From Mesostigma viride (lineage: Eukaryota; Streptophyta; Mesostigmatophyceae; Mesostigmatales; Mesostigmataceae): DNA of 64,000 bases. The position numbers and the translations under genes were made by a program. Shown here piece by piece: positions 1 to 64,000 of the stretch (the stretch's first letter is position 1; every line of letters begins with the position of its first letter). Below the pieces are notes generated by a model. That model searched no databases and was not told the origin of the DNA. It saw only the letters and a program-made list of their open reading frames with translations. The DNA lies in assembly GCA_009746045.1 (NCBI GenBank), contig RPFO01000380.1, positions 1,406,020 to 1,470,019 on the forward strand, given 5' to 3'.

Positions 1-541
1 CGTGTTTTTAAGCGCGTGTTTAGGTTTGTCTTTAGCTGTGTGTTTAGGTGCGTCTTCAAGTGTTCCTGCAAGCCAGGTCACATTGCTTCGAAGTACGGCA
101 GCAATGCTGCGAGATCTCTTCATAAAAACACAGCACCCCATGGCAACACAGACGCCACCTTGTTTTTAGGTGTGCTGCCGTGGCGGTGAATTAAGTGCCA
201 GACAGCGCGTTGCCCTTATAATTGGGATCGTGCCAGAAAAACTGCCAAGTTCTAATTAGAAATGTCCCCGAAAACGATAATTAGCAGGCATGGCCTTCTC
301 TAGACACAGCCTTGGTTGGATGCCGCTTCCTTGGCCTTAACATCAACTTTTTGTTCGACAAGTGAGTGAGTTTAGGTATCTGGCTCTAGTTAATTGTTCC
401 ACGTTGCAGAGGGGAAGTGGCTATCCCTCGGGGACATCGCCTATTTATATGGCTTGTGTGGAATTCCTGCCGTGACAGTCCACTGATCCCTGGGTCCCTG
501 TCCCCACTTCCTGGGTGCCCCTGCCGCTCCCGCACGCAGGG
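1..541. other. Left edge, no gene recognised
   Basis: No coding exon can be supported here. The first 70 bases carry a loose repeat of a TGTTTAGGT-like word. The stretch may be the 5' flank or a 5' UTR intron of PAN3, or the end of a gene lying outside the window. Confidence 0.3.
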
Positions 542-15978
<15,437 letters not shown>

Positions 15979-17775: not shown

Positions 17776-18129
17776 GCACATGACTGCGTCATGCACGTGG
17801 GTGCCAATACAGAGTAATAGACACGTGACTGCGTCACGTGAGCATAAGTCCTCAGTGGGAGGGGAACATGGGATGGAATGGATGGTGTAAGCTATCTAGG
17901 TCCTACGGTTACAGGGGTGTTGGGACCTCGGCCCGAATCGCTATATGAATGCCATATGCGGTCACACGCGGAGCCCCCACAGACTTGGGGGTGGTCTCCT
18001 TCATCGATCACCACTAAGTACTTGCCATCTATCCTTGCATACCATCTGCCTCCATATTACAGACAAACCACATGAGGCTGCCCGGGTGTGAGCCCGTCAC
18101 GTCTAGTGTAGCACATGTCCATGCCGAGT

Positions 18130-18360
18130 CTATCGATCACGAAAAGTCCACGGGGTGGCGGCCCTGCCGCGCGCGGCCTGCATGGGCCAGGCCAAGTGAG
18201 CCGGGATCGACATATCGCCCAGGCTGGGCGGGCTTGGTGCCAGCTAGTCTATCTGATGTGTCTACCTGATCTGTGCGGGCGGCAGGTGCCCGGCTAGGCC
18301 CAGGCGCCTGACAGTGCCTAATAATGTGGGAAACATAGTAGGGCAAATCAGCGTACAAAT
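18130..18360 (-). mobile_element. Degenerate LINE RT C-terminal fragment (family B)
   Basis: The minus-strand frames give DLYADLPYYVSHII and then RTDQVDTSDRLAGTKPAQPG. These match DLYQGMPYITSTI and RTNQVDTSRGPPAGLRPAQPG of the LINE at 60092-61104. The frame is broken, so this is a pseudogene remnant. Confidence 0.75.
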
Positions 18361-18394
18361 CCTCATTACTAATAATGTGCAAACCAAAGGGGAT

Positions 18395-18560
18395 GTTACA
18401 ACAGAGTAAAGGAACCTTCCGAACCCTACTATATACACAGCGAGAAGGAGCCGGAGGGACGCGGGGGGAGCTTCTCTCACTGCCGCAAGTGGGAAGGCCC
18501 CACAGAGCGCTCTCTCCACAGCATGGTGCCGGGGCGCAACACTGTGCGGGTGCAATATAC
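18395..18560 (-). mobile_element. Dispersed repeat R3, inverted copy
   Basis: Reverse complement of 21724-21905, with the shared GCAGTGAGAGAAGC core, the GAGCGCTCTGTGG word and GTTCCTTTACTCTGT. A third, diverged copy is in PAN3 intron 9. Confidence 0.75.
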
Positions 18561-18584
18561 AACAAGTGCAATACCATTAATTAA

Positions 18585-18640
18585 TCAATTAATTAATAAT
18601 TAAACTCGTGCTCCCGTTGGGGAGTCACGGAGCTCCGGAG
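18585..18640 (-). mobile_element. LINE family B 3'-end motif
   Basis: The AATTAA tract is followed by ACTCGTGCTCCCGTTGGGGA and GTCACGG. The same 3' end closes the LINE at 61233-61290 and recurs at 59617-59675. Here the element lies on the minus strand. Confidence 0.75.
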
Positions 18641-18734
18641 TGCTTTTACCCTGCATGTGCACAACAGGAAGAAAGGGCAGAGACCGGCCCCTAGCTTTCT
18701 CCTTCATGCCAGAGGCATGCCGGGCCACCATGCA

Positions 18735-19470
18735 GTAGCAATCGGACACTATATATACATGATAAATTACGGTGGTGACTGATTGGCAAATGCAACGTAA
18801 GGAAAAACCCGAAAAGAAGAAGAACCCTGAAGAAATAGTAATCTGACCCAGACATCCAAGGATTACGTACGCCAGCTGCACAAGGTACAACTATATAACT
18901 ACATGATTCACAAAACTATGACACGCACTGCCACATCGCTGCCGGCCCACCATGCAGGCCTGGGAGGGATCTAGACCGCATGGGTCGCGACAAAGTCGGC
19001 CCGGGTGCAGCGCAATAACACATCAGCCACGGTGCGAGTGAGGGCGAGTGACAGGCGCTGCCGGCGCCAATACGAGGACCACCTGCGGGCAGACCACGGC
19101 GGGGCGGTCTGACCCTCGAGGTCGAGGCGGTCTTCACGGCGCTGGCACCGCCGGCACTCGTGGAAAAACTCCGCTGTCTCTAGAGGGGCCCATGGCCCCG
19201 AACTCCTCAAGGACAAACAAAGAAGGTGACGACCCGGTGGGGCCCCACATTGCCCGCGTATATATGAGGAGGCAAACTTGTTGCGCTCAGCCACAGCGGC
19301 AGCAGCGCCGTCATCCACAGCCGCCCGCCGGAGGATGTGGCGACCGGAGAGCGGCCGAGCCAGTGACAGAGACATCGATGAGCAGGTGGCAACCCTGCCC
19401 GTCGTAGTCAAGAACGGTAATGTCGGGGCGGTGGTTGGGTGAGTAGAGGGCGGCCCCATCCGCGTATAAC
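18735..19470 (-). mobile_element. 5'-truncated LINE (family 2) with 3' UTR
   Basis: The minus-strand frames encode the tail of a LINE polyprotein: FFHECRRCQ-like, REDRLDLEGQTAP, and LALTRTVADVLLRCTRADF before the stop. The 3' UTR at 18735-18910 carries the TTGTACCTTGTGCAGCT and TCACCACCGTAATTTATC words. The reading frame holds over about 190 codons but the 5' part, including the reverse transcriptase core, is missing. Confidence 0.85.
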
Positions 19471-19483
19471 TATATATATATAC

Positions 19484-19580
19484 GATTTCTTCAGGGTTAT
19501 TCTCCCAGTTATCGGGTTTTTCCTTCTGTTGCATGCCCATCTCACCTCCGTAATCTATCATTCTCAATGAATATATATAC
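19484..19580 (+). mobile_element. LINE family 2 3'-end fragment
   Basis: About 100 bp of the family 2 3' UTR, ending CATTCTCAATGAATATATAT. It meets the inverted family 1 tail at 19586 tail to tail. Confidence 0.8.
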
Positions 19581-19585
19581 GATAT

Positions 19586-19740
19586 ATATTAAAAATATAA
19601 TTACTTACAGCAGAGTGAAATCACTCAAACCAAAGCAAACGCCCCGCTATTAACCTATATACAGAGCCATGTCAAAGCTCTATACTACGATAAGACCAAT
19701 GGAAACGCCTGGAACGATATATATAGTTATATACGATATA
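19586..19740 (-). mobile_element. LINE family 1 3'-UTR fragment, antisense
   Basis: Reverse complement of the family 1 tail, with the words TTTGGTTTGAGTGATTTCAC and TCTGCTGTAAGTAATTATA read on the minus strand. Only the tail is present. Confidence 0.85.
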
Positions 19741-19769
19741 GTTACGATATATACGATATAGTTATATAC

Positions 19770-20145
19770 GATATCTATGCCACCGCCCCGTGGTCGGCCC
19801 GCACGTGGTCCTCGTATTGGCGGCAGCGCCTGTCACTCGCCCTCACTCGCACCGCGTGGCTGATGTTATTCCGCCGCACCCGGGCCGACTTTGTCGCGAC
19901 CCATGCGGTCTAGATCCCCAGTCCAGGCCTGCATGGTGGGCCGGCAGCGCTGTTGCTGCGTGTAGTTTTGTGATGTATAGTTAGTTGTACCTTGTGCAGC
20001 TGCATGGCGTGATCCTTGGATGTCCGTGTGAGATTACTATTAATTTCTTCGATCAGGGTTATTCTCCCATTTATCGGGTTTTTCCTTATGTTGCATGCCT
20101 ATCTCACCTCCGTAATCTATCATTCTCAATGAATATATAAACGAT
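19770..20145 (+). mobile_element. 5'-truncated LINE (family 2)
   Basis: The plus strand carries the last about 45 codons of the family 2 protein, including a GRLCRDPCGL-like reading and, in the correct frame, RTRADFVATHAV before the stop. The full family 2 3' UTR follows, ending in CATTCTCAATGAATATAT. Small insertions break the frame. Confidence 0.8.
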
Positions 20146-20375
20146 CGTCAGCGCTTGTCGGTGGCGCTGACTCGGGCCATGGCTGACATCATGCTCCGCC
20201 GTACGCGGGCTGATTTTGCGGTGCAGCAGGGCTATTAGGTTCCTCCCGTTAGGCGTTTCCAGTGGTCTTATCGTAGTATAGAGCTTTGACATGGCTCTGT
20301 ATATAGGTTTATAGCTGGGCGTTTGCTTTGGTTTGAGTGATTTCACTCTGCTGTAAGTAATTATATTTTTAATAT
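20145..20375 (+). mobile_element. Very short LINE family 1 copy
   Basis: The last about 30 codons of the family 1 protein (LTRAMADIMLRRTRADFAVQ, then a stop after QGY) followed by its 3' UTR ending GTAAGTAATTATATTTTTA. It is joined head to tail to the preceding family 2 copy. Confidence 0.85.
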
Positions 20376-20439
20376 ATATACGATCCGGCAATACCATCGA
20401 TCGCCATGCGTCCAGGCATTAGTTAGTTGTCTCACTTCA

Positions 20440-20640
20440 TACCATACTGTAGGCTGACGCATAGCTTTAATATTATGCTACATGAGGTGATGTGGGTTTA
20501 AGACGTACGTCGGCTAAGGCCCAAGCTGATGGCCCACAAGGTGCCGGAGCTCATTGAAGGTACTATAACGCTGGGCGCTAATATCATTTCAATTATAGTG
20601 CTGTAATGCCCTAGGCTATATCCGGGCATAATCGATTGCC
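20440..20640 (-). mobile_element. Dispersed repeat R4, inverted copy
   Basis: Reverse complement of 17484-17690. Confidence 0.75.
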
Positions 20641-20659
20641 CCCATCTACTAGTAGACAA

Positions 20660-21720
20660 CTAGCTATAGATTGAGTGCTCTATATCCTGCATGGGGGAGC
20701 CTGGGGGGGCTTCTGGACACAGTTTCTTGTTGACATAACTTGAGGAACTCGTGAGCCGTGAGGTCCCCGCCCCGCCAGTACACTTGGGGAGCCCTTCTCG
20801 GGGTTGATCTTGTGGCGGATGTACATAGTCGCGGGGCCACTGATCGCGGCGTTGCTGGTGCTGGCCGGGCTGGCGTCTGACAGGTCGCCGTCAAGCGATC
20901 GGTCCAGGAGGTGTTCACCAGCTTCGATCGTGCGGCGAGAGAGGAACCGAACTCGGGCTGTGATGTCGCTTAATTATAAGGTGACTGAGAACCACTGGAA
21001 CGGGGCCGGCAGTAGCCTAAGTTGCATGTCCCGTGGATAGTGGGGCAGGCGGTACGGGCGCCCAGGCTGCAGTGTCGCACCTGGCAGCTCCAATGATGCA
21101 CGCCAAGAGTTGTTTCTTCAGCTCGTCGAGAAGAGAGTCTGGGGTCTCCTCCGGCTGCATGCATGTCGAAGCGCCTGAGGATGACCTGGGCAGCGGCGAC
21201 GGTCAGTGCGCGGTCAGCCGGCCTCGCGGCCGCGGTGTCTTCCATATCTCCTGGAGCTTGCATGGTGGTGATGGCGGTGGTGATATTAGAGCTAGGTAAC
21301 TTGCCTGGCTCTTGAGCAGGTCAGCCCAGGAGGTGCGCAAGTCGAGGGGTCGCTAGCCCTACCAGCATGCAGGACCTTGGGCTGCGATGGTGGCCGTTCG
21401 CTCGGCGATCTCGGGGACCTAGCTAGCTGCCGGCGTGGCCTGGCCACTACTGAGGGCGTCTACCTTTGTAGTAGCAACTGCCGGCCTCAAGTTCAGTTCA
21501 CGGTGCCTTGGCCGACTCGGCCTTCCGACCTGTACGTTATTAAGGCGGGTGGTCACAGTCGGTGGCTCGGTGGCGTCGGAAAAGTTTGGTGGCTGCCAGT
21601 GATATACATGCTCTTGCGTAGTGAGTGCCAGTCTGATGTCCTCTTGCGTAGCAGTAAACTGAGGCTGGTGCGACTCTGGCTTCAATGTTGTTGACCTTGC
21701 ATGGCCGCGAGAGTGTTGAG
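20660..21720. other. Unassigned part of the repeat cluster
   Basis: Several open frames of 60-105 codons exist on both strands but none shows a recognised motif. The sequence may be decayed retrotransposon ORF1 or 5' sequence. I cannot assign it. Confidence 0.35.
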
Positions 21721-21723
21721 TGG

Positions 21724-21905
21724 ACCTATGGTATCACATCAGGTTGTATTGCACCCGGCCACTGACAGTGTTGCGCCGCGGCACCATGCCGGCTCTGGAT
21801 AGAGCGCTCTGTGGCCTGCCCACTTGCGGCAGTGAGAGAAGCTAGGGCGCCCTCGGACCTCCTTGTTGTGTATAGTAGGGGTTAAAGGTTCCTTTACTCT
21901 GTATT
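21724..21905 (+). mobile_element. Dispersed repeat R3, sense copy
   Basis: The best-defined copy of R3, with the GGCAGTGAGAGAAGCTAGGG core. See the inverted copy at 18395-18560 and the diverged copy at 10900-11040. Confidence 0.75.
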
Positions 21906-22065
21906 AGCACCCACGTGACGCAGTCACGAGCTTATTAATAATTAATTATAATTAATCAATGCAGCCAGTCCACGCGATCGACTCGATCACAACGGGAACG
22001 CGCGATCACTAATTAAATGTCTTAAATTAACAATATACAAGATATTATTATATATATTCATTCAT

Positions 22066-22760
22066 CAGAATTGGTATTTGTATTTGCACACTGTCCTCCT
22101 GACGGTGGTGCTCGCCATGATTCGGTCGGTTTTCCCCCACGCGAACATCCGGTCCGAGGATGCGGATGGCGCTGCCTTCTATTCCCCCAACCACCGGCCT
22201 GACATCGTGGTGCTGGACTTTGACTGGGGGTGGCCGGCATCTGCTTATTGACGTTTCGGTGGCGCGGCCCTTGGCTCTTAGCCACGTGGCTGGGGCCTCC
22301 CTCACGGCAGGTTACACGGCGGACCGGGCGGAGCGGGCCAAGCTCCTGGCCTACGGCGACGTCGGGTGACCATCGTGTGGTGCCCTTTGTCCTGGAGGAG
22401 TTTGGGGCCATGGGGCCCCTGACCTCGGCCTTCTTCAAGGAGTGTTGCCGGCTCCGGGAGGACCGGCTGGACCTGGAGGGCCAGCGGGCCCCATGGTCGG
22501 CGCGGACCTGGACGTCATATTGGCGACGTCAGCGCTTGTCGGTGGCGCTGACTCGGGCCATGGCTGACATCATGCTCCGCCGTACGCGGGCCGATTTTGC
22601 GGTGCAGCATGCAGGGCTATTAGGTTCCTCCCGTTAGGCGTTTCCATTGGTCTTATCGTAGTATAGAGCTTTGACATGGCTCTGTGCATAGGTTTATAGC
22701 TGGGCGTTTGCTTTGGTTTGAGTGATTTCACTCTGCTGTAAGTAATTATATTTTTAAATA
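22066..22760 (+). mobile_element. 5'-truncated LINE (family 1), frame broken
   Basis: The nuclease-like region is present (SPNHRPDIVVLDF) but a small insertion after it shifts the frame. It continues as SVALTRAMADIMLRRTRADF, a stop, and the family 1 3' UTR. The copy starts at the same point of the element (CAGAATTGGTATTTG) as the antisense copy at 25661-26353. Its 3' end abuts the 3' end of the antisense copy at 22762-23890. Confidence 0.88.
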
Positions 22761-22761
22761 T

Positions 22762-23890: not shown

Positions 23891-23929
23891 TTGTTGTTAT
23901 ATATATCCAGTTGACCCTGGCCAAGTGCG

Positions 23930-25645: not shown

Positions 25646-25660
25646 ATAATATATATATAT

Positions 25661-26353
25661 ATTAAAAATATAATTACTTACAGCAGAGTGAAATCACTCA
25701 AACCAAAGCAAACGCCCAGCTATAAACCTATATACAGAGCCATGTCAAAGCTCTATACTACGATAAGACCAATGGAAACGCCTAACGGGAGGAACCTAAT
25801 AGCCCTGCTGCACCGCAAAATCAGCCCGCGTACGGCGGAGCATGATGTCAGCCATGGCCCGAGTCAGCGCCACCGACAAGCGCTGACGCCAATATGACGT
25901 CCAGGTCCGCGCCGACCATGGGGCCCGCTGGCCCTCCAGGTCCAGCCGGTCCTCCCGGAGCCGGCAACACTCCTTGAAGAAGGCCGAGGTCAGGGGCCCC
26001 ATGGCCCCAAACTCCTCCAGGACAAAGGGCACCACACGATGGTGCCCGACGTCGCCGTAGGCCAGGAGCTTGGCCCGCTCCGCCCGGTCCGCCGTGTAAC
26101 CTGCCGTGAGGGAGGCCCCAGCCACGTGGCTAAGAGCCAAGGGCCGCGCCACCGAAACGTCAATAAGCAGATGCCGGCCACCCCCTCAAAGTCCAGCACC
26201 ACGATGTCAGGCCGGTGGTTGGGGGAATAGAAGGCAGCGCCATCCGCATCCTCGGACCGGATGTTCGCGTGGGGGAAAACCGACCGAATCATGGCGAGCA
26301 CCACCGTCAGGAGGACAGTGTGCAAATACAAATACCAATTCTGATTCTGTATA
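25661..26353 (-). mobile_element. 5'-truncated LINE (family 1), inverted
   Basis: A near-identical reverse-complement copy of 24943-25645, separated from it by about 15 bp of AT repeats. The reading frame is VRP-like, with NHRPDIVVLDFEGVAG then a frame change, and LTRAMADIMLRRTRADF near the end. Together the two copies form a large palindrome. Confidence 0.88.
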
Positions 26354-26439
26354 TATTAAATAATTAGTAATATAGTATACTTAGTATTAATTAATTAAAT
26401 TAAATTTAATATGTTCATGCATGGCGCGGTGTGATTAAT

Positions 26440-43700: not shown

Positions 43701-46700
43701 TGTGGGTTGCGGCACTGGGAAACCTAGTGTTTGAAGGAAACTGTGTTTGAGGGAAACTGTGTCCATGGGTTGTATTCCATGGGTTGTTTCATGGACTGCA
43801 TTTCGTAAGCTTGGGTAGTTACTACATCCCTGTAGTTAGTATAGGTGTCTCCCTGCCTTTTGCCTCTACCATGGACCAGCACTGATACACCCCCCAGAAT
43901 GCGGCGGTGAGGGGCGTTAGAAAGCAGGCTAGCAAAGTGCGGGAGTAAGAAAAGTAACAAGGGCAGAAGAAAAAACACGGCTCCGTGACACACCAGCCAG
44001 ATGTCATTGTTGACCGGACAAATGAGCTGTTTTCAACGGCCACAAAGCGCCTGTCCACAGACAGACGGGGGAGAAAGTTCGATCCCCCACCCACATGAGC
44101 ACACCAAGCGAGCACTATCATGCGAGAGGTCCTGTGTTCGAATCCAGTTTCGTACCAAAAAATTTCACTATCGGTTCGCAAGGCAATCCCTTGCAAGTAT
44201 GCAAAAGTAATGTGTATCGCATTGACTAACCCCACCCCCCACCTGCTCGGCCTTGTCCATCTCGGCCGCGCGCTGCTCTAGATCCTTGGTGCGATCCGCT
44301 GCTGCCCTCTGCTCCGCCTCTAGTGCCACGCGCGCGCTGTCCATCTCCTTGGCCCGCGCCTCCAGGTCACGCTCGTGCTGGGCCACGCGCAGCTGTTGGT
44401 TGGTAGCCCCCGTTGGTAGGCCCGGTTGGTAGACCCAATGAATAGGCCCGGTTAGAAGTCACAGTTGATAGACGCAGTCAGTACACCAGGTTGATAGCCC
44501 GAGTTGATGGAGCCCGTCGGTAGCCCCGGAGCAGGTCAAGCCAAGTGGCACAGGGGAAGCCAGGGAGCGAGGAGGCAGCGAGGACTTGTATATACTTGGT
44601 CAGTTAGCTGGCTAGCTTCTTACATTCAGAACTATGATATAGCCACGGGAAGTGAATCAATGACTGACTAGAACTGTGCTGTCACACTAGCCAGCTCGCG
44701 CGCACTTGCCTCGTGTGCCCTGACCCCCTGCTCCGCCGCATGGATGCGCTCCTGCCACTGCTCCAGCAGCGCCTCCCGCTCCGACAGGAAGCGGCGCGAC
44801 TCGGCTTGCGTGAGGCTACGGAGTTGTGGGTGTGCAGGTGGTGGTGGTGGTGTGTGGTGTGTGTGGGGGGGAAGGGACGAATCTTAGCAGTGAGCAAAAG
44901 AGGCCTGAGCAAGAAACGCAGGATTGATTGTGAATGAATGCAAGCGAGAGCATGTGATTGCAACTGAGTGCACAGATACAGATGCATGCAAGCGCATGCC
45001 CATGCATGCAAACACATGGAATCAGGACGTTAGGCATTATATACCTCATGATTAATGGCATCACCAAAAGTGCTGAAGTTCAGGTCCAGGAACAGGTAGC
45101 AGGAACACTCTAAGTTGCGTGGGCCAGTGTAGGGCTCTGTCTCCAGTGAAACAGGCTTAAGCTTGGTGTCAACTGCTGCAGTCATGTTACCTGTCCGTGA
45201 GCATGGACTTGGGGGGTGCCAGTCAGGCGAGGTCGACGGACAGGGGGGGAAGGGGGGGACAAAGAGGAGATTGTATCCGCGCACTCAAAATACATTGCAT
45301 CTTCTGAACTTTGGTGGCTAGGGTGAGTGGGGATATCCAGCAAGAGTAGCACGTGAATGCCTGCCTGTGTTCAAAGAAGCTCAGCATCTGGATGTGCATG
45401 GGTGCACATCCAGACGCCGAGCTTCACAAATTGATTCATGGATGAAGGACGGGCACATGGAGAATGGAGGGAGCACCATTGGTGTGTTGGGGGAGCCGAT
45501 TCATGAATACTCGGGAGGACCTGCGTGGGTGCTCCCAGCTGGGCAACCCACAAGGACGGCGGCCCCACCTGTGCCTGTCGTCCAGTGCCTTCTCTTGCGC
45601 CCGCAGCGCGGCCGCTCTCTCCTCCAACATCTTGCGCTGCTGCGCGGCCTGCTCCAGGTACTGCTTGCTCTCCTCCACACGCAGCTGGGTTTCCTTGGTG
45701 GCTTCGTCCACCAGCTTCAACTGAAAGCAGACGACGAATGGGGAGGGGATGCCTCGCCAGCAAGTTTGCAGTGTAAGGGAACCCGTTGGTGGGAAACTTG
45801 GTAGGCAGGCAAGGGCAGGAATGTTGCAGCAACGATTCAGTCTATAGATGGGAGAAGGAATTACAAGAACATCCAATCACCGATGCGGGTTCTAGTGCAT
45901 GCAGCAGCAGTGGCAAGCGCTTCCTGTCAAGTGTGCAAGCAGTGGCGGCTCACAGCAGTATGCTGATCGCTGAAGAAGCCGCTGACCGCATGTCATTCAG
46001 TATGGCACCTAGAGGCATCAGAGCTAGGGACCGCATGCATTTCTTAGTCGAATCAATGTTGCTGAAGAAAAGGGAGTGCTGGAGTGACTTCAGTAATATA
46101 TGTGCTTTAACATAATGCTACCTAGACACAAGATCGCTTAAAGCTTCCAGTAAACAGAAGCCAGTAACAATCCCGAGACTGAATAACAGTTTTGATTGTC
46201 CAGGCCAGGCAATAAGCATCAGCTGGTAAATAAGACCTACCCGCTGCGCCTCGGCCTTATTGGTTGCCTCTGCCTCAGACAGCATGTGCAGTCGCTGCTC
46301 CAGCGATGCCTCCATGCGCTCGCGCGAGGCCTCCCATTCGAGGATCTTGGCGTGCAGCGCCGACGCCTCGTCCTCCAGCACCTTGCGCTTGCCGTCCAGC
46401 TCCTCCTGGGGGAATGAGGCATGCGGAGAAAGAACAAAATAGCATGTACCGTGGCAGCTGGTTATCCGTCCAGCTGCTGAGGAGATGGGATGCGGATGCA
46501 GATAGATACATAAGAAACTATGTTACATAGCAGATTGGTTAGCAACCCAACTCCTCCAGGGGACATGGTGCGACACAGAAAAAAAGTGCCGAAGGTTACA
46601 AAGACGTTACTTAGCAATAAACTCGTATGGTCATTAATAACACAACTCTATACTGTGGTTGAATAGCAGTTACTGAGCAGCAGTCATAGCAGGTAAGAGT

Positions 46701-49700
46701 ACATCAACTTCACATAGCATCCACACAAACACTGAGTGATTCCTGTAAAGCCCACGTGTGCACTCTTGCGGTGCTAGCATGGTACATGATGGAACTCTGA
46801 TAGAGCTGCTCTGCAGAAACCAGCAAAGCACATTTGACGTGCAAGCAGCCAGGAGGCCTGAGGACGTGAGACGCGAGCCCCACCACCCGCGCGAATGCAG
46901 GCCGGTGGGATGCCACCGCGCTGGGGCTGTAGTAGCCAATGCTAGCCGATACTACGACACATACCATTCGACCCGTGCGCCTGAGATGCCATGAGAGGTG
47001 CTCTACCTATAGGAAATCTGTTTGCAGCGTCCCCAACAACACAGCCTTGCAGTCACATAGTTGCGAGTGTGGCAAGATACGCCATCAGTGCTGCGAGCAG
47101 CGAGAGGCATTTCACAGCGGCAATCAGACATACGTACGCATGCAAGTCAGATCTTACAAAAACATCCATCACGCGGTGAATGCCAACCTGCAGGTTTCTC
47201 TCAAGCATGCTGCGTTCGTCCTTCCACTCTTGTGCTGCCTGCCGCACCAGCCCTTGCACCTTGACCAGCTCTTGGTGCTCCGCATCCTGTGGCCGCCATC
47301 CAGAGAAAGTATGCCAGTAGCATCCAACGCTCATGATCTCTAGGAAGAAATGGTGATCAGACATCACCATGTAAACATTCTGCTAAAACGTACATGGCAC
47401 CATATAGAACAAACATCAAGATCAGCCATACAGAACCTGCTACTACCAGGCTCAAGGCATGCCAAATTATCCAAGGTATGGACAATTGAGCCCTTCTGAA
47501 CAACCGCCTTCGACACCCGACCCGTCTTATGCACCGCACCAACCGGCGTCGCGCCTCGATAGCGCGGTGCATAAGACGGGTCGATTGCCTTCAAGTTCAC
47601 ACAATTCAGAAATAAGGCGGACCTCTTTAGAGCGGGTGTCTCGTGGGTTGTCGGCGCTGCGTACGCGGCGCCAAGATGTGATTCTGCCGCGCCACGCGAG
47701 GATCTTACCACTGTTCTTCGTTCCCACCCGTCCGTAAGTCGGTTTCTACGTAGGGTCCCTAGAAGGGGACCTGCGCGACAGAACCGGCCCTGAGCTACGC
47801 CTTAATCGCAATCCGAACCCGCGCCAACGTCGGTGGTTCAGAAGGGCTCTAATGATAGCTGAAAATGGATAACCTAACGGCACCAGCAATGCAAGCAGGG
47901 ATGCTAGGTGCAGCCTCTCCAAGCAGTTGCAGGCATCAAAATCATATGGTTTAAGCATCACATGGGGCCCAACCCATGACGATGAAGATGCCAGAAATAA
48001 GGGTTACCTACCAGCAGAGCCCTCTCGCGCTGGCGTTCCCTGGAAAGCGAGGACAGCTCGGCCATGGTGACGTGGAACTGGGGCCACAAGGGGATTGGCG
48101 GCGAGCGGAACGCATGGACAAGGTAACAGAAGAACTAGGGTAAGAGATCAAGATGGACCAGAGCAGCAGGGGATGGTTTCCGGTGAGTGGACAGGGATGC
48201 ATAGGCAGCACAGCCAACCGAGAGGTGGCCAGAAAGTGTGTGTGTGTGTGTGTGTGTGTGTCGGGAAGGGGGGGGGGGGGGAGGGGGGGGGGGGGCATAA
48301 TATGTATGTGTGTGCATGTGCGTGCCAGTGTGCATGAGGGGGGATTCATGGTAGCGCAGCTTCCAGTGTCGCAGTCCGGAAGCGGCTAGGTGGGCCCACC
48401 CAGAACCGCTGTGTGGCAGCAGATGTTCAACAGCCCGAGGACAAAGTGGGCACTCCAGGCCAGATTGGTTCTTTTCCTGCCATGTGTCCCATGTTCATGC
48501 CCCATGCCGCATGACCATGCCAGCTGCCCACCTGTTGCCGCGCACTCTCACTGTCCTGCCGGTACGACAGCAGTGCCTTGTCGGCCTCCGCCGCCTTCTT
48601 CTCGGCCAGCGCCTGCGCCTGCTGCGCGTCCTCCAGCGCTTGCCGCTGCGACGCCAGCACCTTCTCCACCGCCTTGCTCTCGTCCATCAGCTGCCCGTGA
48701 GACAAAGGGGGGAAGGATGCAAGAAGAAGGTATACAAGCAGCAAGGGGACAAGGTTGCAAGAAGTAAAGGTGTGCACAAGTATACAATTTTGTGCCAGCT
48801 GCAGTAAGCTGCAGTGAGGGAAATGGTGCTGAGTTGCTAGTAAGACACTAATAAGCTGCCATCTGATATTACGTCCACACTGGTTGGCCTGTATCCACAT
48901 GGCAGTGTGTGAAATGAGGGCACTCGGGGCTCTAGACGACCTGAGTAGCATTGCCAACAGCAAGTTCAAAGGAGAAAGGGAGCGCAAGCGAGAATCGCAG
49001 TCAGGCAGGCAGGCAGGAGGCTTGGAGCAAGACACAGGGCGCATGGCGCACACACGTGACAGCAAAAAACAAACCAAATCGACCCGGACAACAATCCAAA
49101 GCAGGCAATCAGGCACACGGCTCATGCATGATCCCAGATGTCCATTCTTCTGGACGCCTCTTAATGGGATGTTTCGTCATCATCCGTTGATTGGTATCCT
49201 TCCTTTAGTATCCTTTTGTTCCCGTCACGCCCGCCACCTTGGACATCATGAGCCACCATCGCTTCCCACCCTGCCCACCATCTCCGTCACGCCCACCACC
49301 TTGGACATCATGAGCCACCATCACTTCCCACCCTGCCCACCATCTCCGTCACGCCCACCACCTTGGACATCATGAGCCACCATCGCTTCCCACCCTGCCC
49401 ACCATCTCCGTCACGCCCACCACCTTGGACATCATGAGCCACCATCACTTCCCACCCGGCCCACCATCTTGAGTCGGTTTGTGCTGGCCTCCAGATCGGC
49501 CTCCACGGCGCGCAGCGTCGCCTCCTTCTTGATGATGGCCGCGTCCAGGCTGGCCAGCTGCTCGCTGCGGCTGCGCTCCTGCAGCTCGTGCCGGCTCTTG
49601 ACCGCTGCCTCTTGCTGCAGCGCCGCGTCACGCAGCCTCTCGCCCTCCTTGAGCAGGGAGTCGCGCATCTCCTGGGGATGTGTGTGGGTGGGTGGACGAC

Positions 49701-52700
49701 GCAAGTGACAAGGGTGGATGTGTGCGGGTGGGTGGACGACGCAAGTGACAAGATGTGCCTGTGAGCCGGGTGGATGCTGAGATGTTGACAATGTTGACAA
49801 TGTTGACGATGTTGACACTGGGGACGATGGGAACAATGGGGACGATGGGGAAACTGGGGACAATGAGGACAATGCGGACAATCGTGACAGTTGGGACGAT
49901 GGGGACAGTGGGGACAGCGGGGACGATGGGGAGAAATGGGACAGTATGGACAGAGGCGGCTTGGAGAGGAAAGGCACAGACGGAGGAGACGAGCCCTACC
50001 TCTATGCAAGCGTGAATAGGTCACTGGTGCGGTTTGGAGTCATGGGCAACGAAGGCCATGCATCTCGTGGGGACGGCTTCCAGATATACCCCGGCTTCAC
50101 ATTCGAGAGGCAGCATACCGAAATACCTTGTCAGGTCAACAAATACACCCACTCCGTGGAAACGGGAAGGCGGTGGAAGAGTGAGGAAGAAAGGATGCCA
50201 GCAGATAACGGAATCAAAAAAATCTCGGAACACTGCCATTATGGGCCTCAACGAACCACAACTGATGGAACTACAACTACGACTACAACGGGTGTCTGGG
50301 TCGAGATCTCAAGCTGTTCAGAGTATAGCAGCTCAATAACGCCTTACTTTTGCACATGACTACTCCTGCACACAATGTAACAGACTTTTCGCGACACTCC
50401 AGCAGATATCGCCCAAAGCCCGGGGGGTCTCAATGGCCCGTGTGTGTGTGCGGGGGGTGGGGGGGGGGGGGGGGGAAGCGGGGTCCAAACCCCCCACTCC
50501 CGACGTTTTATGAGTGGGGTGGGGTGTGGGGGTCCGACCCACCCACCCCTCTGGGGCCCATCCCCGGCTGTTATAAATAGCTGGGGGGGGGGGGCAAGCC
50601 TTCTTTACCCCCCCCCCCCCCCATGGACCCCCCGGGGGGGGCAACGAATTGGGGGGGGGGGGGGGGGGGGAGGGGCGTCTGCCCCCTAACCCCTGGGGGC
50701 TCCCGTGGCTAGGGAGGGGGGACTTGACCCCCCCCCCCCCTTCTCGGGCAATATCTCCGGGAGTGTCGCGAATAGGCTGATAAATTGTTACAGCTTGACC
50801 AATCATATAGGTCCTTTATCTACTTTTGCTTCACTGATAGATAAACTAGCTTTAGTAAGACCTAAACTATTTTTTGAATGCCATCATAAGAGCAAATAAC
50901 GCGATTGCCTCGGTTAAAGCGAATCCTAAAAAAGCATAACCAAATAATTTATTAGCTTGAAAAGGATTTTGTGCTACTGCACTAATCAAAGAACTAAAAA
51001 CATTTTGATTTTTCCCAATCGGAAGCTTCTTCTCTACTTGAGTAGAGAGGCATGAGTAGAATTCAAATGTTTATAAACCAAGTCAAGCTGCCCACAAGAA
51101 AGCAAGGCACCTACCCTTTTCAGAAAGCAGCTGTTTCTTGCCTGCGATGTGACTAGAAGACGGACACTAAATCCCGTGACCATCCCGCATTGAGCATCTC
51201 AGATGTATCGAACCCCACCTGCAGCTCCGCGCGCGACTGGTCCAGCTCCCTCGCCCCCTCGCGCTGCACCGCCATCATCGCGTCCACGTCCTTGCGCGCC
51301 GCATCCAGCCCCCGCGCTGCCGCCTCCGCCACCTCCTCACGCTTCTTGACGGCTGCCTCCCGCCCCTCCAGCGCGCGCACGCTCTCCTGCACGCGCAGCT
51401 GCTCGCTCTGGTGTGGGTGAAGGGGGGTGAGCCAGAGGCGGAGGCCAGATGAGGTGGCCACATGAGGGCGGTGAGACAGGAGACTTTGAAAAGTGTCATG
51501 GCTGACAGGTGTCGTAGACAATAGTAATAATGGACCAAGACGATGAGGCAGGTGGGGGGGAAGAGACACAAGCAACGCCAGATGCCTTGGACGAAGAGGC
51601 AGGAGTTTTAGTGGCAATGCCCTTCCTGGCGTCATGCCTTATCACGGCGTCATGCCTTTACGGTACGATGGGGAACTTTACGACGCAGACGCCAAACTAG
51701 TGAGCACACTACCAATAACCTTGTGCCCCAGTGTCGCCACCCCAGCAAAACTATCACATGCATTAAAGCTAGTGCCCATCTGAAGCAAGTAAGCCAACTT
51801 GTGGCTCCAGCCAACAACAAGCTTCCTTAGATATACATGGGCTTCTTCACGATGACGCCCGTGTAAACTCATGGTGGTCCACTCAAGGAGACCATGCTAT
51901 ACTTACGAAAGGCAGGACAGAGATAGGAGTAAACACCTCGCGCATCGTCAGATGGTTTACTAGAGAGCGGAGCACCCACCTCGCGCATGATCCACCGCTG
52001 GTGTACTAGAGAGCGGAGCACCCACCTCGCGCATGATCCACCGCTGGTGTACTAGAGAGCGGAGCACCCACCTCGCGCATGATCCACCGCTGGTGTACTA
52101 GAGAGCGGAGCACCCACCTCGCGCATGATCCACCGCTGGTGTGCTAGAGAGCGGAGCACCCACCTCGCGCATGGTCAGCCGCTGGTGTACTAGAGAGCGG
52201 AGCACCCACCTCGCGCATGATCCACCGCTGGTGTACTAGAGAGCGGAGCACCCACCTCGCGCATGATCCACCGCTGGTGTGCTAGAGAGCGGAGCACCCA
52301 CCTCGCGCATGATCCACCGCTGGTGTACTAGAGAGCGGAGCACCCACCTCGCGCATGATCCACCGCTGGTGTACTAGAGAGCGGAGCACCCACCTCGCGC
52401 ATGATCCACCGCTGGTGTGCTAGAGAGCGGAGCACCCACCTCGCGCATGATCCACCGCTGGTGTACTAGAGAGCGGAGCACCCACCTCGCGCATGATCCA
52501 CCGCTGGTGTGCTAGAGAGCGGAGCACCCACCTCGCGCATGATCCACCGCTGGTGTGCTAGAGAGCGGAGCACCCACCTCGCGCATGATCCACCGCTGGT
52601 GTGCTAGAGAGCGGAGCACCCACCTCGCGCATGATCCACCGCTGGTGTACTAGAGAGCGGAGCACCCACCTCGCGCATGATCCACCGCTGGTGTACTAGA

Positions 52701-55700
52701 GAGCGGAGCACCCACCTCGCGCATGATCCACCGCTGGTGTACTAGAGAGCGGAGCACCCACCTCGCGCATGATCCACCGCTGGTGTGCTAGAGAGCGGAG
52801 CACCCACCTCGCGCATGGTCAGCCGCTGGTGTACTAGAGAGCGGAGCACCCACCTCGCGCATGGTCAGCCGCTGCTCCCACTGGCTCAGGCTGGCTTCCC
52901 TCCTCTCGCAAGCTTTCTCCCGGGCCACAACGGTCGCGGGGGGCCCAAACGTGATCTCCGCATCCTTGCCTTCGTCCGCCTGGAGACGGAGGGCAGCCTG
53001 GCGGGGCGCTCAGCAGTCAACAAGGAAACAGACAAGGGAAGAAGAACTTGAGTAACAAACATGTACCCTGGAACACCAAGGTCGGTGGTATGCAGCCATG
53101 CACACTCAGATTGTAAGCACACGAAAACGAGCTGGATGATATGCTGGCGGCATAACGCTTGATCTATGTACCTGTTATGGATGATCTCGCCATCGACCAC
53201 AAGGAGAAAAGAAAGCACCTTGAAATCACGACCGCTTCATGTCGCACCAACCCGCCAAACGTGCTACACATCCAGCCCCACTGAGCTGAGGTAGCCTTTG
53301 GCGGCATAGCACAAGACAAGGCGGCACTGTGAGGTCCCTACCTTGAGGTTATTGCAACAAAACAAGATGGCCCTACCTTGACCCGCTCGAGCTCCTCCTT
53401 GGCCTCCTGCAGCTCGGCCTTGTGTGCCTTGGCCTCTCGCTCCGCCTCCTTGACCTCCTTCCCGGCTGCATCCCGCTTCTCCAGCAGCGTAAACGCCTCG
53501 GCGCGCAGCGCGGATATTTCGGCCGCGTACTCAGAGCGCGTGGCGTCAAGCTGACGCACGGCACACGCACTCAGGCCCACAAGCAGGCATAGGTTGTGGT
53601 GAGTGTCTGAGTGTAGGTGGGTGGGTGGGTGGGTGGTGGGAGGGCGGGAGGGCGGGTGGGCGGAGGGCGGGAGGGCTGGAGGGCGGGAGGGCGGGAGGGC
53701 GGGAGGGCGGGAGGCGGGAGGGCGGGGGCGGGGAGGGCGGGAGGGGAGGGCGGGAGGGCGGGAGCGGGAGGGCGGGAGGGCGGGAGGGCGGGCGGGAGGG
53801 CGGGAGGCGGGAGGGCGGCGGGAGGGCGGGAGGGCGGGAGGGCGGAGGGCGGGAGGCGGGAGGGCGGGAGGGCGGGAGGGCGGGAGGGCGGGAGGGCGGG
53901 AGGGCGGGAGGGCGGGAGGCGGAGGGCGGGAGGGCGGGAGGGCGGGGAGGGCGGGAGGGCGGGAGGGCGGGAGGGCGGAGGGCGGGAGGGCGGGAGGGCG
54001 GGAGGGCGGGAGGGCGGGAGGGCGGAGGAGGCGGGAGGGCGGGAGGGCGGGAGGGCGGGGGCGGAGGGAGGGCGGGAGGGCGAGGCGGGAGGGCGGGGCG
54101 GGGGGCGGGAGGGGGAGGGCGGAGGGCGGAGGAGGGCGGGAGGGCGGGAGGGCGGGAGGGCGGGAGGGCGGGAGGGCGGGCGGGCGGGCGGCGGGCGGGA
54201 GGGAGGGAGGGAGGGAGGGAGGGAGGGAGGGCGGGAGGAGGGAGGGAGGGAGGGAGGGAGGGAGGAGGGAGGGAGGGAGGGAGGGAGGGAGGGAGGGAGG
54301 GAGGGAGGGAGGGAGGGAGGGAGGGAGGGAGGGAGGAGGGAGGGAGGAGGGAGGGAGGGAGGGAGGGAGGGAGGGAGGGAGGGAGGGAGGGAGGGAGGGA
54401 GGGAGGGAGAAGGGGGGAGAGGGGGGTGGGCTGCTGCAGGGGAAGGAGGGAGGAAAAAGTGCATCTCCCTCTGTTGTACGAATGCTGAACAAACGATGGC
54501 AGGGGGTGATGATCGACTAGCTGGATTTGGGGAGAAGTGGCATTTTCCCTGTTCCCCATGGTACATTGCTTTCATTGCTAATCCTTATATCCATGAGAGC
54601 TACTTTGCATGTGATTTATTATTACGCCCGATGCAAATAGTGGCAGGCATGTCGCCCATATTGCCAGGTCGCTGACCCTCAAAGACTGTCCTGCACAAAG
54701 GAGCACCCGGCTCACCTGCTGCAGGAACGCCTGTGCGACCGTCTTGAGCCACTGGTCCAAAAGCTCCGCGTTCGGCCCCTCCCGCACCCCTCCCGATTGG
54801 AGCGAGGGCGGCGCCACCTTGTCCAGCACCATGCGCAGCGACTCGGGCAGACCCTGGGAGATGCCCGCGGGCGGGCTCCTGCTGGAAAGGCCATATGCAC
54901 GGGATATTTGTAAGGGTTTGGTGCGGGGCTAGGTAGGTGTGAGAACGGCCTGGCATCTTTTGAGCTTGGACATGAGAATGAGCAGGCGGTGCTTCACAAG
55001 CTTGCAACTAAGGAACAAGGGGTCACTTTGTACAGTTCTACAAGAAAGCCACCGTGGCGCAAATAGTTCATGGCAAGCAGACAGAAAATACGTTCTTAAT
55101 CGTCTTCCTGTAATGTCCAGTGCTAGTTAACAACTCACGTGAAGAATGCCCTCAAGTGGGCCACGGAGTCATGGCTTGACTTGGAACTGCCGCTGCTGGC
55201 AGCCGCGTGGGACGCCAGCCCGGTCCCGCTGCTGCCGCGGGACTGCACGACAGTGAATGCCAAACAGTGAGGCAGGAGCATTCCACAAAATCGAGTTGTA
55301 AGAAAATTCAGAGAACCGTGAACCAGGTGGGGGTTCCCCGTTCCCACAACGTCATACATTGGCATGTTTCATGTGCATATTGGTGTTGACAAGGACTAAT
55401 ATGACCAAGTGTGTGCGCGAGGAGGGAGTCAGTCATGCATTCAATACCCAAGGGGCAGGCCCCCAACAGAGGCGAATGGATATGAACGGTAAGACCTTCC
55501 CGAGAGAGCATCCACCTGACTAACAAACCCTACAAACCATACGCTATGTGTGGCATTAGTAGCTGGTCCATATATCCCAGAATTCTAGTTCAAGCTCTTA
55601 CCTCATCCAGGGGAGTGATAATCGGGATCTGAGGCTGCACAGGCTGCGCAGAAAAGGGAAAGAATGACGCTCCCGGCTGGCTTCTCTGTACTAGGGGCGG

Positions 55701-59154: not shown

Positions 59155-59515
59155 GATACATCATCAAGGAGACAACCAGCACAGGCCAGAAACGATCCGG
59201 AGAGTCCGGACCATGGTAGCTCGAGCCTGCCATTATATCTTTTCCGCGTTTTCAAGCTAGTCGTTCAGGATGATGAATATGAATGGAGCTAGATGGAAAT
59301 TTGTAGCCTTCAGTACGCATATAGAAATAATATCAAGGAGACAAATATGGCTGGCTTACTTGTAGAGCGTCTAGATATGACCTAGACAGTGGGGCTGGAA
59401 ACAGCTTGCACTTGATCAGCTAGGGCGTGTGTTTCGAGCCTATAACTGGCCAGGAGTGTACGTCTAGTGGTGAGCACCATATTGCTGCGCGATCGCCCTC
59501 CCACCATTTACATCA
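59155..59515 (+). mobile_element. Dispersed repeat R1, copy 2
   Basis: Aligns with 17105-17460 from ATCAAGGAGACAACCAGC to the GAGCAC and CTCCCA(C/T)CATTTAC words. An internal second ATCAAGGAGACAA near 59334 suggests a nested or duplicated start. Confidence 0.8.
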
Positions 59516-60091: not shown

Positions 60092-61290
60092 CAGAAGGGT
60101 GTGTGGCAGGGCTGCGTGCTGTCGCCCTACCTGTTTGAATTATTGTTGTCGAATACGTAATGATTCAGGCGCGCAAGCGATTTGCCCGCATCGTGGGTAG
60201 GGAACCAGGAGTGCAGGTTGCTAACAAATTCTGGCATGGCGGTGCGGACACGGAGATTCGGCTAGCAGACATCATTTACGCAGACGACACCACCCTCTTC
60301 GAGGACACTGAGCACGTGCAGACATGGCTTGACTGCCTGGCTCTCTCGGCCCGTGCAGTGGGGCTTGAGGTCAGCAAGAAGACAGAGGCCCTGGCGGTTG
60401 GGCTCACCAACTCACCGCCGCCCCTCTATCTCCTAGACGGCTCTCGAGTCCTGTATCGGGACCGCGTTAAGCTGCTGGGCAGCCTGCTCCCCAGCTGTGA
60501 GGTTGATGTGGACCATCGCATCTCCCTCGCCTGGCACGCTTTACGCCAGTACCGGGCCCTGTGGCGCAAGCCCCTGGGCAAGATCGAGAAACAGGACCTG
60601 TTCAAGGTCCTCGTCCTTCCTGTTCTCACGTATGGCGCCGAGACGTGGACCCTCACCGCCGACCTGGCCCGCAAGCTGGACGGCGCGGTCACCAGCATGC
60701 TGCGTTCCATTTTCAGAGTAGGATATGCTGCTCATGTCCGCAATGAGGACCTGTACCAGGGCATGCCCTACATCACCAGCACCATTAAGCAACGCCGCCT
60801 GCAGCTAGTAGGGCACCTAGCTCGCACCAACCAGGTAGACACCTCACGTGGCCCCCCCGCAGGACTGCGACCAGCCCAGCCTGGCCGGCACCTCCTGACG
60901 TGGGCTGGGCCCAGTGATGTTAGACGCCGCAAGGCCCGCACCTTCAAAGAACAGCTAGTAGAGGACATGGGGGGCCTAGGCCTCTCCGTGATTTGGAAGA
61001 AGATGATGGACAAGGCCAAGTGGGCCAAGGTCATACAGGACAACGAGCCCCCCCCAGTGGGGAAGCGCCCACGTGTGCAATCCCGCGGGAGGCACGCCAG
61101 ATAGCTCCCCAGGGCAGCGTGCGGCAGCCTGGATAGATGTTGTAGTTAGCATGCTGTTAGATAGATGTAGTATGTAGCCAATGTAGATAGATTAGACCGG
61201 TATGAATGTTTGCACCCATCCATCCATCCATCCGGGTTAATGCTCCGTGACTCCCCAACGGGAGCACGAGTCTAATTAATTAATTAATAC
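60092..61290 (+). mobile_element. 5'-truncated LINE (family B) with RT motifs
   Basis: A piece of reverse transcriptase: GVWQGCVLSPYLFE (fingers/palm motif B) at about 60098-60140, a one-base frameshift near 60148, then an open frame at 60160-61104. It carries the catalytic box YADDTTLF and thumb-like sequence (VLPVLTYGAETWTL, TSMLRSIFRVGY, QLVGHLARTNQVDTS). This layout resembles RTE or related animal and plant LINEs. The 5' RT motifs and any endonuclease are missing. The 3' end has CATC repeats and then GACTCCCCAACGGGAGCACG and an AATTAA tail. Confidence 0.88.
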
Positions 61291-61299: not shown

Positions 61300-61345
61300 C
61301 TCCCGATTTCTGGCCTGCGCTGGTTGTCTCCTTGAAATTCTGTCA
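61300..61345 (-). mobile_element. Dispersed repeat R1 start, antisense fragment
   Basis: Reverse complement of the R1 start: GATTTCTGGCCTGCGCTGGT and TGTCTCCTTGA. It sits 10 bases after the LINE tail. Confidence 0.75.
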
Positions 61346-61409
61346 CGACCACGTACCTGCACCCTTTGATCGCTGATTAGATTTCTGGACAACTATTACT
61401 GACGCGCAG

Positions 61410-61415: not shown

Positions 61416-61579
61416 CAATGAAAAATATACGCCTGCCTGCATGTCTGAGCACAAACCTGATTGTTGCACAAAAAAAAAAGTCTATCCAACGGTGAAACAT
61501 GACAAACTCAAGAGCAACATTCCCATGGCTTCGATTTTAATTTGACGCTCTTTTGCCTTAGACTCAGAACTGGCATGCC

Positions 61580-64000
61580 TTATCTTGCAGCAGAACAGAA
61601 CGTTTCCAACGTCTCATCCAGCTTCTTGGGATCAAAATCACTGGTAAAGACGCAGTTTCCGAGTGGCCCCTTCAATAAGATGAGCCGCAGCACCCCATTA
61701 GCCACCTTCTTGTCGACCTGAGCCACGAGATCATGCCGCACACAGCAACAGTCAGGAGCAAACATGCAAAAATCGTGCCAATCGTGAAATTACATGTCAA
61801 CGACACACCCAGTGCAAAGCAAAAGTTTGCAAATCAAGTGAGAGGTCCCATCAATGTTGAAAGTGCACGCCTAAAACAGCCCAAGGCTACTATACTAATG
61901 TTAAAACTAGGGAGGGTCTTAAAAACGAATTACCACTAGCACTCACCAACTTGTGCTCGCGCAACTTGTCCAACGGTCATCTCCTCGCGTTGCAACTTGT
62001 CCAACGGTCATCTCCTTGGGAGCAACCAAGAAGATACAGACAATGTCCTACTAGAAAGGTCACTATGATCGAGATATGAGAGGGCACTATACTCAAGAAG
62101 CGAGAGGGCTTTCTACTCAAATATCACGCACCATCATGAGCTCGCGGAACTTGTCCACGGTCATCTCCTTGGGGGCGGTCACGGGGCACTCGGCGCGCCG
62201 CAGCAGCTTGATGAGCCGCTGCGTGATCTCGCCGTCGATCCAGCCCAGCCGGTGCGACATGTCGCTTGCCATGACCTGGGCAGGCGAGGCAACGCGGGGC
62301 AGCATGAATGGGGTGGCACAGGGGCATTGGGCAGCACAGGGGCATGGGGCAGGCAACCGACAAAAACGACCAGGGCACAAGCAACCGACAAAACAAGACA
62401 ACCGAGGTGATGTGTCAGGTGTCTGATTGTTAAAAATGCATGCATGTAGGGATGCTTGCGATGTCATGCCTGTGCTATAGTTGCTTCATTGATGTACGGG
62501 AAGACCATACCCTGTGTTAGATGCCTACCGCTTGCTGGGTGAGGCGATTTCCACTCTGCATGAGCCAAGTGTGGTGGCTTAGATTATCTAGATGCCCACG
62601 GGGGAAAAGCACACACCCAATTACCCCAACGTCACTGTAGCCCAGTATTGTTCATCTCCAATAATCAGGGCAGGAGCACCCTCCGACTCCCACTTCACCT
62701 GGCAATGCCCAAGAAATGCCCAGCGCTTCACGCTCTGCACACGCACCCCGGTTGCACATGGAGGCACCCGACGGACGCACGAGGCGGAGCTGTTCTAGCA
62801 GAAGGCATACAAGCAGGCTGTACGAAGGGTCCTAGCCGAAACCATATGCACGTCGCAGGGTGGCTCACCATGCCAGCGGCCACGGCCTCCCCATGCAGCC
62901 AGTTGCCGTAGCCCACACCCGTCTCGATCGCCTGCAGGGTGCCACGGGCCATCATGGAGGACCAGTGCACGTATGAGCACACGTGCATGTCAGTCATCAC
63001 CTCAACCTTCAAAGGAGTCATAGTATTAATGATAGTATTTCCCACACCCCTGCTTACAAAAATGAGCCGTGGGCAAAAGGAGGGTCCAGAGAGGCTTCCA
63101 AACAAGAACCATGCTAGTGGCTTACAAACATGCGCTCGCACAGGAAGGCATCAAACAATCACAGGATTGCCTTGACAACGACGCCGTTAGCACCGAAAGT
63201 GATGCTTCAACCCACTCGCCTTACAATAAACACGTAATGCTGGATGGCACGACAATGCCTACTAAGTAGTGAAACTCCCATCACTCCCACAACGGGGTTA
63301 AACCAATCCCCACCCTTCCCACAACTTGTGGGCCCAACAACCTCCCACAGCTGGTACCTCCCACAGTGGTGTGTCGACTTGCATGCCCGAACGTGTGCCC
63401 AAACAGCTCACATGCCCACGCATGAGCCAAAACAGTCTTTATGGCCAAACATGTCCAGTCACCTACATGCCCAAATGCATGCCACAAACAGGCTGAACCC
63501 TAACTACTCGAATGCCCAAACATGTTCAGGGAGAGAGTGACTCACGTGCCCAAACATGCCGAGTAACTCACGCACCGTAAAGGTGTGCCACAAAGGGTTA
63601 CAAATCCAATTACCGAAGCGACTCTATGCCTAACATGTGCCCAAACAGGTCACATGCCCATCCCTGTTTTATCCACTCACGTGCCCAAGTGTGTGCCCAA
63701 ACCACCCACACGCCCAAAACACGTGCCCAAACCACCCCATGCCCAAACGTGTGCCCAAACCACCCGCATGCCCAAATGCGTGGCCAAACCACCCATGCGC
63801 CCAAAACATGAGCCAAAACCACCCGCGTGCCCCAACGAGTGACGAAGCAACTCACATGCCCAAACGTGTGCCCCAGGTTGAGGATCGCGCGCAGGCCGCC
63901 CTCCCTCTCGTCGCGCGTGACCACGTCCGCCTTGTCCTCGCACGAGCGCTTGATGGCGTGCAACAGCGCCGCCGGGTCACACGCCATTAGCGCCTCCATG
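61580..64000 (-). CDS. 3-dehydroquinate synthase, C-terminal part (gene runs off the window)
   Basis: The enzyme turns DAHP into 3-dehydroquinate, step two of the shikimate pathway, using NAD and a metal ion. It is plastid-located in plants and algae. Exons in view: 63999 (edge)-63856, 62931-62869, 62275-62132, 61717-61580, all phase 0, giving 162 residues. Motifs: [32 protein letters not shown] joined to [20 protein letters not shown], then RLGWIDGEI and [15 protein letters not shown]. The histidines of GHTFGH and LHGEAVA correspond to metal ligands of the family. The NAD-binding N-terminal half and the transit peptide lie beyond the right edge. It is a single-function enzyme in the visible part, since the stop follows shortly after the normal C terminus, which argues against the fungal AROM fusion. 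Two of its three introns contain copies of the preceding exon end. Confidence 0.93.
61940..62030 (-). repeat. Echoes of the dehydroquinate synthase exon ending at 62132
   Basis: On the minus strand, GGAGATGACCGTTGGACAAG occurs twice. The copy further from the exon continues into TTGCGCGAGCACAAGTTGGT and GAGTG. The real exon reads GAGATGACCGTGGACAAG then TTCCGCGAGCTCATGATG and donor GTGCGT. Confidence 0.92.
63400..63850 (-). repeat. Many echoes of the dehydroquinate synthase exon ending at 63856
   Basis: The real junction on the + strand reads ACTCACATGCCCAAACGTGT. Copies with GCCCAAA and often ACTCAC follow in the intron at about 63407, 63536, 63648, 63675, 63700, 63720, 63745 and 63770. The copy at 63675-63698 (ACTCACGTGCCCAAGTGTGT) is the clearest. 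Confidence 0.88.

Follow-up and report, generated by a model that had tools for sequence, protein, structure and literature searches.

Single-gene precedents are known for introns in which repeated DNA carries splice sites. Turri, Cuin and Porter reportedly described, in 1995, a minisatellite with multiple splice donor sites in the human interferon-induced gene 6-16. Judging by the title of that work, the likeness to the introns considered here is that of a minisatellite supplying multiple donors, as the true donor lies within an array in four of the present introns (Ce, Cg, DA and Cu). The 6-16 case concerns one human transcript, whereas here copies of an intron's own exon-intron junction (referred to as echoes) are found at the donors of 28 of 81 introns in unrelated genes; they are mostly degenerate, and echoes of acceptor junctions are rarer.

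Tandem repeats are abundant in the introns of Chlamydomonas and Volvox, and more so near intron-exon junctions (PMC3887541); in its accessible portion that report deals with repeat position and motif, not with repeat units that hold an exon end together with its splice site. Tandem duplication across an intron-exon boundary has given rise to a new intron in the potato RdRp gene (PMC4974935), and Drosophila introns have likewise been made by tandem duplication (PMC2891723). As far as the available parts of these two reports go, they share with the present introns a tandem duplication across or at the exon-intron boundary, yet there a new intron is made, whereas here existing introns are enlarged and the mRNA is the same where this could be tested. 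Introner elements account for large-scale intron change, algae included (PMC9860276, PMC3879977). In the portions of those papers at hand, one element is copied into many genes, whereas here junction queries match their own intron, which comes first for 26 of 81 donors. What is new here is the occurrence of systematic donor echoes with a donor-over-acceptor bias, in the sense that no earlier case was found: the literature search, outside of which most subscription papers fell, recovered neither systematic donor echoes in one genome nor such a bias.

Each echo amounts to a natural experiment in splice-site choice, in which a similar donor, typically 40 to 250 nt downstream, is seemingly ignored; at intron Ce, 19 identical consecutive donors are seemingly passed over. 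The donor-over-acceptor bias would provide a testable footprint of transcription order in splice-site choice, and duplication of this kind would be a concrete route for lengthening introns with the mRNA unaltered. Gene predictors may misplace exon ends in such genomes.

Junction copies in the window and in other genes

The window is the whole stretch of Mesostigma viride DNA that was analysed, 64,000 nucleotides in length. Manual modelling from the sequence gave 35 introns: seven in PAN3 (3570-15978, plus strand, with exons modelled at 3570-9480 and 14068-15978; Pan3_PK Pfam match at E 3.3e-50, and homologues), 25 in a long coiled-coil gene (29141-55751, minus strand, ends approximate) and three in the C-terminal part of 3-dehydroquinate synthase (61578-64000, minus strand; DHQS_C at E 6.6e-41, and homologues). 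The PAN3 interval 9481-14067, where exons are unsettled, and the sequence upstream of the first modelled exons are excluded from this set. The spliced reading frame of the coiled-coil gene is free of stops over all 25 introns, 20 of which are in phase 0, and its intron Cm has a GC donor at 44709. In the PAN3 tree the alga adjoins Chlorokybus (support 96/90, with long branches). No match was obtained in a homologue search with the coiled-coil N-terminus at E≤0.001, in an Rfam search at gathering scores, or in a near-identity plasmid search with one exon. By eye, ORFs at 60139-61104 (plus strand) and at about 18000-26700, in the gene-poor part, resemble pieces of non-LTR reverse transcriptases; the ORFs at 60139-61104 and 24345-25520 had no Pfam match at E 0.001.

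For each intron the donor query consisted of the last 40 nt of the exon and the first 20 nt of the intron, the acceptor query of the last 20 nt of the intron and the first 40 nt of the exon, and the target was the rest of the same intron; significance was set at p≤0.01 against 200 dinucleotide shuffles. Copies of the intron's own donor junction were found in 10 of the 35 window introns (P2, P4, P8, Ce, Cg, Cq, Cs, Cu, DA and DC), where 0.35 would be expected, and copies of its own acceptor junction in four (P1, P4, Cj and Cp); the Cp echo, which ranks sixth of 35 in comparison with other introns, may be noise. The own intron was the top match of 35 for seven donors. Ungapped matches over positions -10 to +6 at 12/16 or better occurred in the own intron for 11 of 35 donors, as against 52 of 1190 comparisons with other introns, and one of the 11, that of Cc, has lost its GT and looks like a chance match. 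At a score of at least 35, direct copies were present in 9/35 window introns and inverted copies (reverse complement) in 0/35. At a score of at least 32, neither donor echoes in the previous intron nor acceptor echoes in the next intron were detected (32 tests each). Within the window alone the donor excess stands at 10 versus 4 of 35 introns (p=0.13), or 9 versus 2 of 35 when counted as junction windows (p=0.045).

The assembly (439,911,974 bases in 2243 contigs) was sampled further through genes chosen by Pfam family and not by eye. Exon pairs were hand-picked from match lists before sequence inspection, within loci already retrieved for the chaperonin TCP1 set and mostly over spans under 5 kb for the kinesin set; the selection omitted at least five further neighbouring pairs from the kinesin matches and two from the chaperonin matches. 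Twenty neighbouring exon-match pairs yielded 17 chaperonin introns (three pairs without a model), and 30 exon-match pairs yielded 29 kinesin introns (one without). These models were derived from adjacent domain matches, open frames and splice-site scores for which the window had served as training set, and a few that were retained are weak, such as that at C1613:1392158 (score -0.5).

Donor echoes are present in 6/17 chaperonin and 12/29 kinesin introns, acceptor echoes in 1/17 and 6/29 respectively. Ungapped echo donors occur in the own intron for 7/17 chaperonin donors versus 43/867 comparisons with other introns, and for 12/29 kinesin donors versus 81/2320; among the matches listed for the two sets, inverted scores do not exceed 25. 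When the three samples are pooled, donor echoes (28/81) outnumber acceptor echoes (11/81; p=0.003), ungapped echo donors are found in 30/81 own introns versus 176/4377 other-intron comparisons, and the own intron ranks first for 7/35, 8/17 and 11/29 donors, with 35, 52 and 81 introns compared. Donor echoes extend beyond the window and are present in about a third of all examined introns.

A sequence-only reading of the window had claimed that introns here carry copies of their own exon-intron junctions, up to 20 of them, in the same orientation and the same intron and mostly downstream of the donor, and had proposed shuffled and unrelated introns as the comparison. Own introns exceed both, the pattern recurs outside the window, and 20 echo donors are counted in Ce. 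The figure of at least 15 introns proves slightly too high by this test, under which 13 distinct introns of 35 carry a donor echo, an acceptor echo or both. Acceptor-side echoes, which that reading had not listed, are present as well.

Two contigs with one chaperonin gene, C1641 and C887, are 97-98% identical over about 3 kb, and bear on an intron outside the 81. The true donor is common to both, and an echo donor about 100 nt downstream of it (score 42, z 7.9) is present on one only; on the other contig the site differs and, by eye, a short adjoining stretch is doubled. A further difference between the two is a near-tandem duplication of 18 nt, with 78% ungapped identity to its neighbour. Contig duplication is seen elsewhere as well, C622 being identical to C2 over 2.9 kb, and these duplicates (the C1641/C887 pair, at about 98% over 3 kb, included) are either uncollapsed haplotypes or assembly duplicates. 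Contig C2011 carries long frames for chaperonin and aminoacyl-tRNA synthetase without interruption and is probably a bacterial contaminant in the assembly of the alga.

Anatomy of the echoes and choice of donor

Nearly all of the best donor-echo copies (27/28) span the junction. Their median extent is 25 nt on the exon side and 16 nt on the intron side, where the query stopped at +20, and they lie at a median offset of 105 nt downstream (range 40-465). An assembly artefact is an unlikely source, because most echoes have diverged (median identity 0.88). Exon sequence farther from the donor is echoed in 2/77 windows at -80 to -40 and, among the introns of the 64,000-nt stretch, in 0/55 overlapping windows beyond 60 nt.

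Self-copies occur all along the introns; duplication is not stopped by the donor and passes the acceptor less frequently. Interior self-copies are found in 168 of 787 windows on the donor side (21%) and 132 of 787 on the acceptor side (17%). Donor windows (25/81, 31%) exceed the interior 21% at p=0.04, in a comparison where detection favours junction windows, since their exon half is conserved and thus easier to detect; the excess allows for a junction-linked component beyond this detection bias. Acceptor windows (9/81, 11%) do not differ significantly from their own interior value of 17% (p=0.23). Donor and acceptor windows differ from each other at p=0.003, as do exon-side windows taken separately (21/81 at donors versus 6/81, or 7%, for the first 40 nt of the next exon; p=0.003). 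The near-equal repetitiveness of intron interiors indicates that the echoes stem mainly from local duplication in general, which is tolerated where it crosses a donor.

In three introns the true donor is contained in a tandem array. Intron Ce of the coiled-coil gene (51936-52874, minus strand) has its donor at 52853, within the opening unit of an array with a 46-nt period; of its 20 echo donors, 19 are identical over 16 nt and follow at 46-nt steps. The donor of Cg, also in the coiled-coil gene (49222-49469, minus strand), lies at 49464 within a 62-nt array with three echoes, and that of DA in dehydroquinate synthase (63387-63873, minus strand) at 63855 within an array of about 29/58 nt, where 12 junction-like copies at 12/16 or better are found, five of them without GT. 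The coiled-coil intron Cu has an echo at 35683-35702 (minus strand) that is identical at 20/20 positions, and its donor at 35753 also sits within a two-copy 22-nt array. The mirror case is PAN3 intron P1 (4744-5075, plus strand), in which the array includes the true acceptor: echoes at 4744, 4835 and 4937 precede the acceptor at 5042 with spacings of 91, 102 and 105, and the pyrimidine tracts of the decoys (0.50-0.59) fall short of that of the true acceptor (0.82).

For intron P4 of PAN3 (6641-7044, plus strand) an array is inferred by spacing. The exon end and donor at 6680 are followed by echoes at 6795-6853, 6901-6939 and 7016-7044, which are read as a worn, degenerate tandem array of ~100-nt units. 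Junctions are spaced at 151, 103 and 104, and the first unit contains a repeat-family piece at 6683-6739 (plus strand; 57 nt including one copy of the flanking 9-nt repeat AGTTATAAT), without which the spacing becomes 94, 103 and 104. The second and third stretches resemble each other (z 6.3), the first resembling them weakly (z 1.8 and 1.4). The core of the repeat family, GGAGACAACCAGCGCAGGCCAGAAATC, has four copies in the window at up to three mismatches (6704-6730, 39861-39887, 59168-59194 and 61305-61331), the first of these being the one that sits in P4 with the 9-nt flanking repeat.

In PAN3 intron P2 an echo at 5219-5265 (plus strand) covers exon -37 to intron +5 at 86% identity, with no detectable copy of the stretch between junction and echo; a candidate third echo there was not significant. 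The P8 echoes (14302-14468, plus strand; donor 14262) lie partly in 29-nt units. Those of DC in dehydroquinate synthase (61937-62023, minus strand; donor 62131) have 97% and 88% identity, and the homology considered for the stretch between was not significant. Among the coiled-coil introns, Cs is G-rich with degenerate echoes at 37568-37786 (minus strand; donor 37819), Cq has a short echo at 39250-39265 (minus strand) that ends in CAG/GTGGGC, 40 nt past the donor at 39295, and Cj, which ends at 46406, has an acceptor-side copy of the next exon's start at 46455-46479 (minus strand), placed by eye.

Alignment to relatives is free of gaps at the junctions of P2, P4 and P8 in PAN3 and of DA and DC in dehydroquinate synthase, which indicates that the outermost donor is used at these five introns; the PAN3 alignment starts at exon 2, with P1 outside its range. 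For the coiled-coil, chaperonin and kinesin genes, splicing at the outermost donor is a feature of the intron models. Ungapped echo donors in the window number 51, 20 of them in Ce; 44/51 keep GT, 33/51 outscore the weakest tenth of true donors, and the use of 42/51 would result in a stop codon. In P4 one echo donor is without GT, and the true donor has a better score than the others. The arrays of decoy donors suggested by the sequence-only reading are thus borne out.

Origin of the echoes

Of the 24 echoes for which the stretch separating copy from original could be tested, 11 have that stretch duplicated and 13 have no detectable duplicate of it; simulation at 10-15% divergence per copy puts detection at 75-98% of trials for stretches of at least 45 nt and at 90-100% for those of at least 60 nt. 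Two of the 13 are borderline (z 2.8 and 2.9), and the insertion in P4 partly explains one; echoes without a detectably duplicated stretch include those of P2, DC and C1446:792849. The earlier proposal that introns here grow by repeated duplication across the 5′ splice site stands in part. Copies are local, direct and intron-specific, arrays straddle the donor, and echo introns are somewhat longer (median 728 versus 572 nt; p=0.045 for all 81 introns and 0.06 for those of the window). The process is not peculiar to the 5′ splice site, given interior self-copies and acceptor echoes, and contiguous duplication does not visibly account for 13/24 testable echoes.

The explanation that is considered probable is that introns grow by local direct duplication, with the outermost donor kept and copies that cross the acceptor purged more often. 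Frequent local direct duplication of stretches of roughly 30-200 nt would lengthen introns. A unit reaching from exon into intron would do no harm provided that splicing stayed at the outermost donor; the mRNA would remain the same, and the copy would become a decoy. Protein constraint would preserve the exon original, keeping the echo recognisable as its intron half fades, and insertions such as that of P4 would disrupt the spacing of an array. Where an acceptor is duplicated, the intron-side copy would lie upstream, be transcribed first and be spliced in, and it is proposed that the donor-over-acceptor bias arises because such duplications are purged more often. Order of transcription, whereby the first-transcribed donor wins, would thus lie behind the bias together with purging at acceptors, and the mutational mechanism would presumably be slippage or unequal exchange. 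Constraint on the branch point and pyrimidine tract may add to the bias; exon-side windows are free of such constraint.

An unlikely but surviving alternative is that the exon end and donor (about -40 to +20) are recopied nearby without the intervening stretch, for example by template switching in replication or repair at an R-loop formed where transcription runs into a G-rich intron. The unexplained cases of P2, DC, C1446:792849 and others, in which no duplicate of the intervening stretch is detectable, keep it alive, and it would fit both the excess of donor windows over the interior and the higher G content of echo introns over their initial 100 nt (0.37 versus 0.31, p=0.008). It does not sit well with the arrays that hold the true donor at Ce, Cg and DA, with the 11 duplicated stretches or with intron interiors that are almost as repetitive. 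Inverted copies are a frequent product of template switching, yet the window has none. GTGGG donors, tried as a cause and rejected, are not significantly commoner in echo introns (12/28 versus 13/53 others, p=0.13). Quite unlikely is the more far-reaching form, in which recopying without the stretch between is linked to transcribed 5′ splice sites, many thousands of decoy donors are tolerated, if the sampled rate holds, because transcription order settles the choice of donor, and the acceptor deficit is a trace left by this rule in evolution.

It is very improbable that selection keeps the echoes as regulatory decoys, alternative donors or recruiters of the U1 snRNP. Retention of GT and donor-like scores in much of the set of 51 would be expected of selected sites, but most would introduce a stop if used, 20 are supplied by the single homogeneous array of Ce, the P4 echoes are weaker than the true donor or without GT, and an echo donor is missing from one of two near-identical contigs. 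Hardly credible is the Rogers model, under which the arrays would be relics of intron birth by tandem duplication of an AG/GT exon segment: arrays do straddle donors, 11/35 exons begin with GT and the start of P8 resembles that of the next exon (rank 0.057), but over the 35 window introns the signature is absent, both for intron start versus next exon start (p=0.37 ungapped, 0.10 local) and for intron end versus previous exon end (p=0.79 and 0.46). A shared or transposed element is not supported, as junction queries match their own intron and not others, and templated insertion during end joining, from which copies are expected in either orientation, left no both-orientation copies in the window (score at least 35: reverse 0/35, direct 9/35).

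Two introns also contain long hairpins. That in Cl (45350-45450, minus strand) is near-perfect, with arms of about 23 bp and an RNA fold z of -5.2, and may represent a young foldback element or the precursor of a small RNA; the second, in Ci (47515-47600, minus strand), has a stem of about 25 bp and a z of -8.0.
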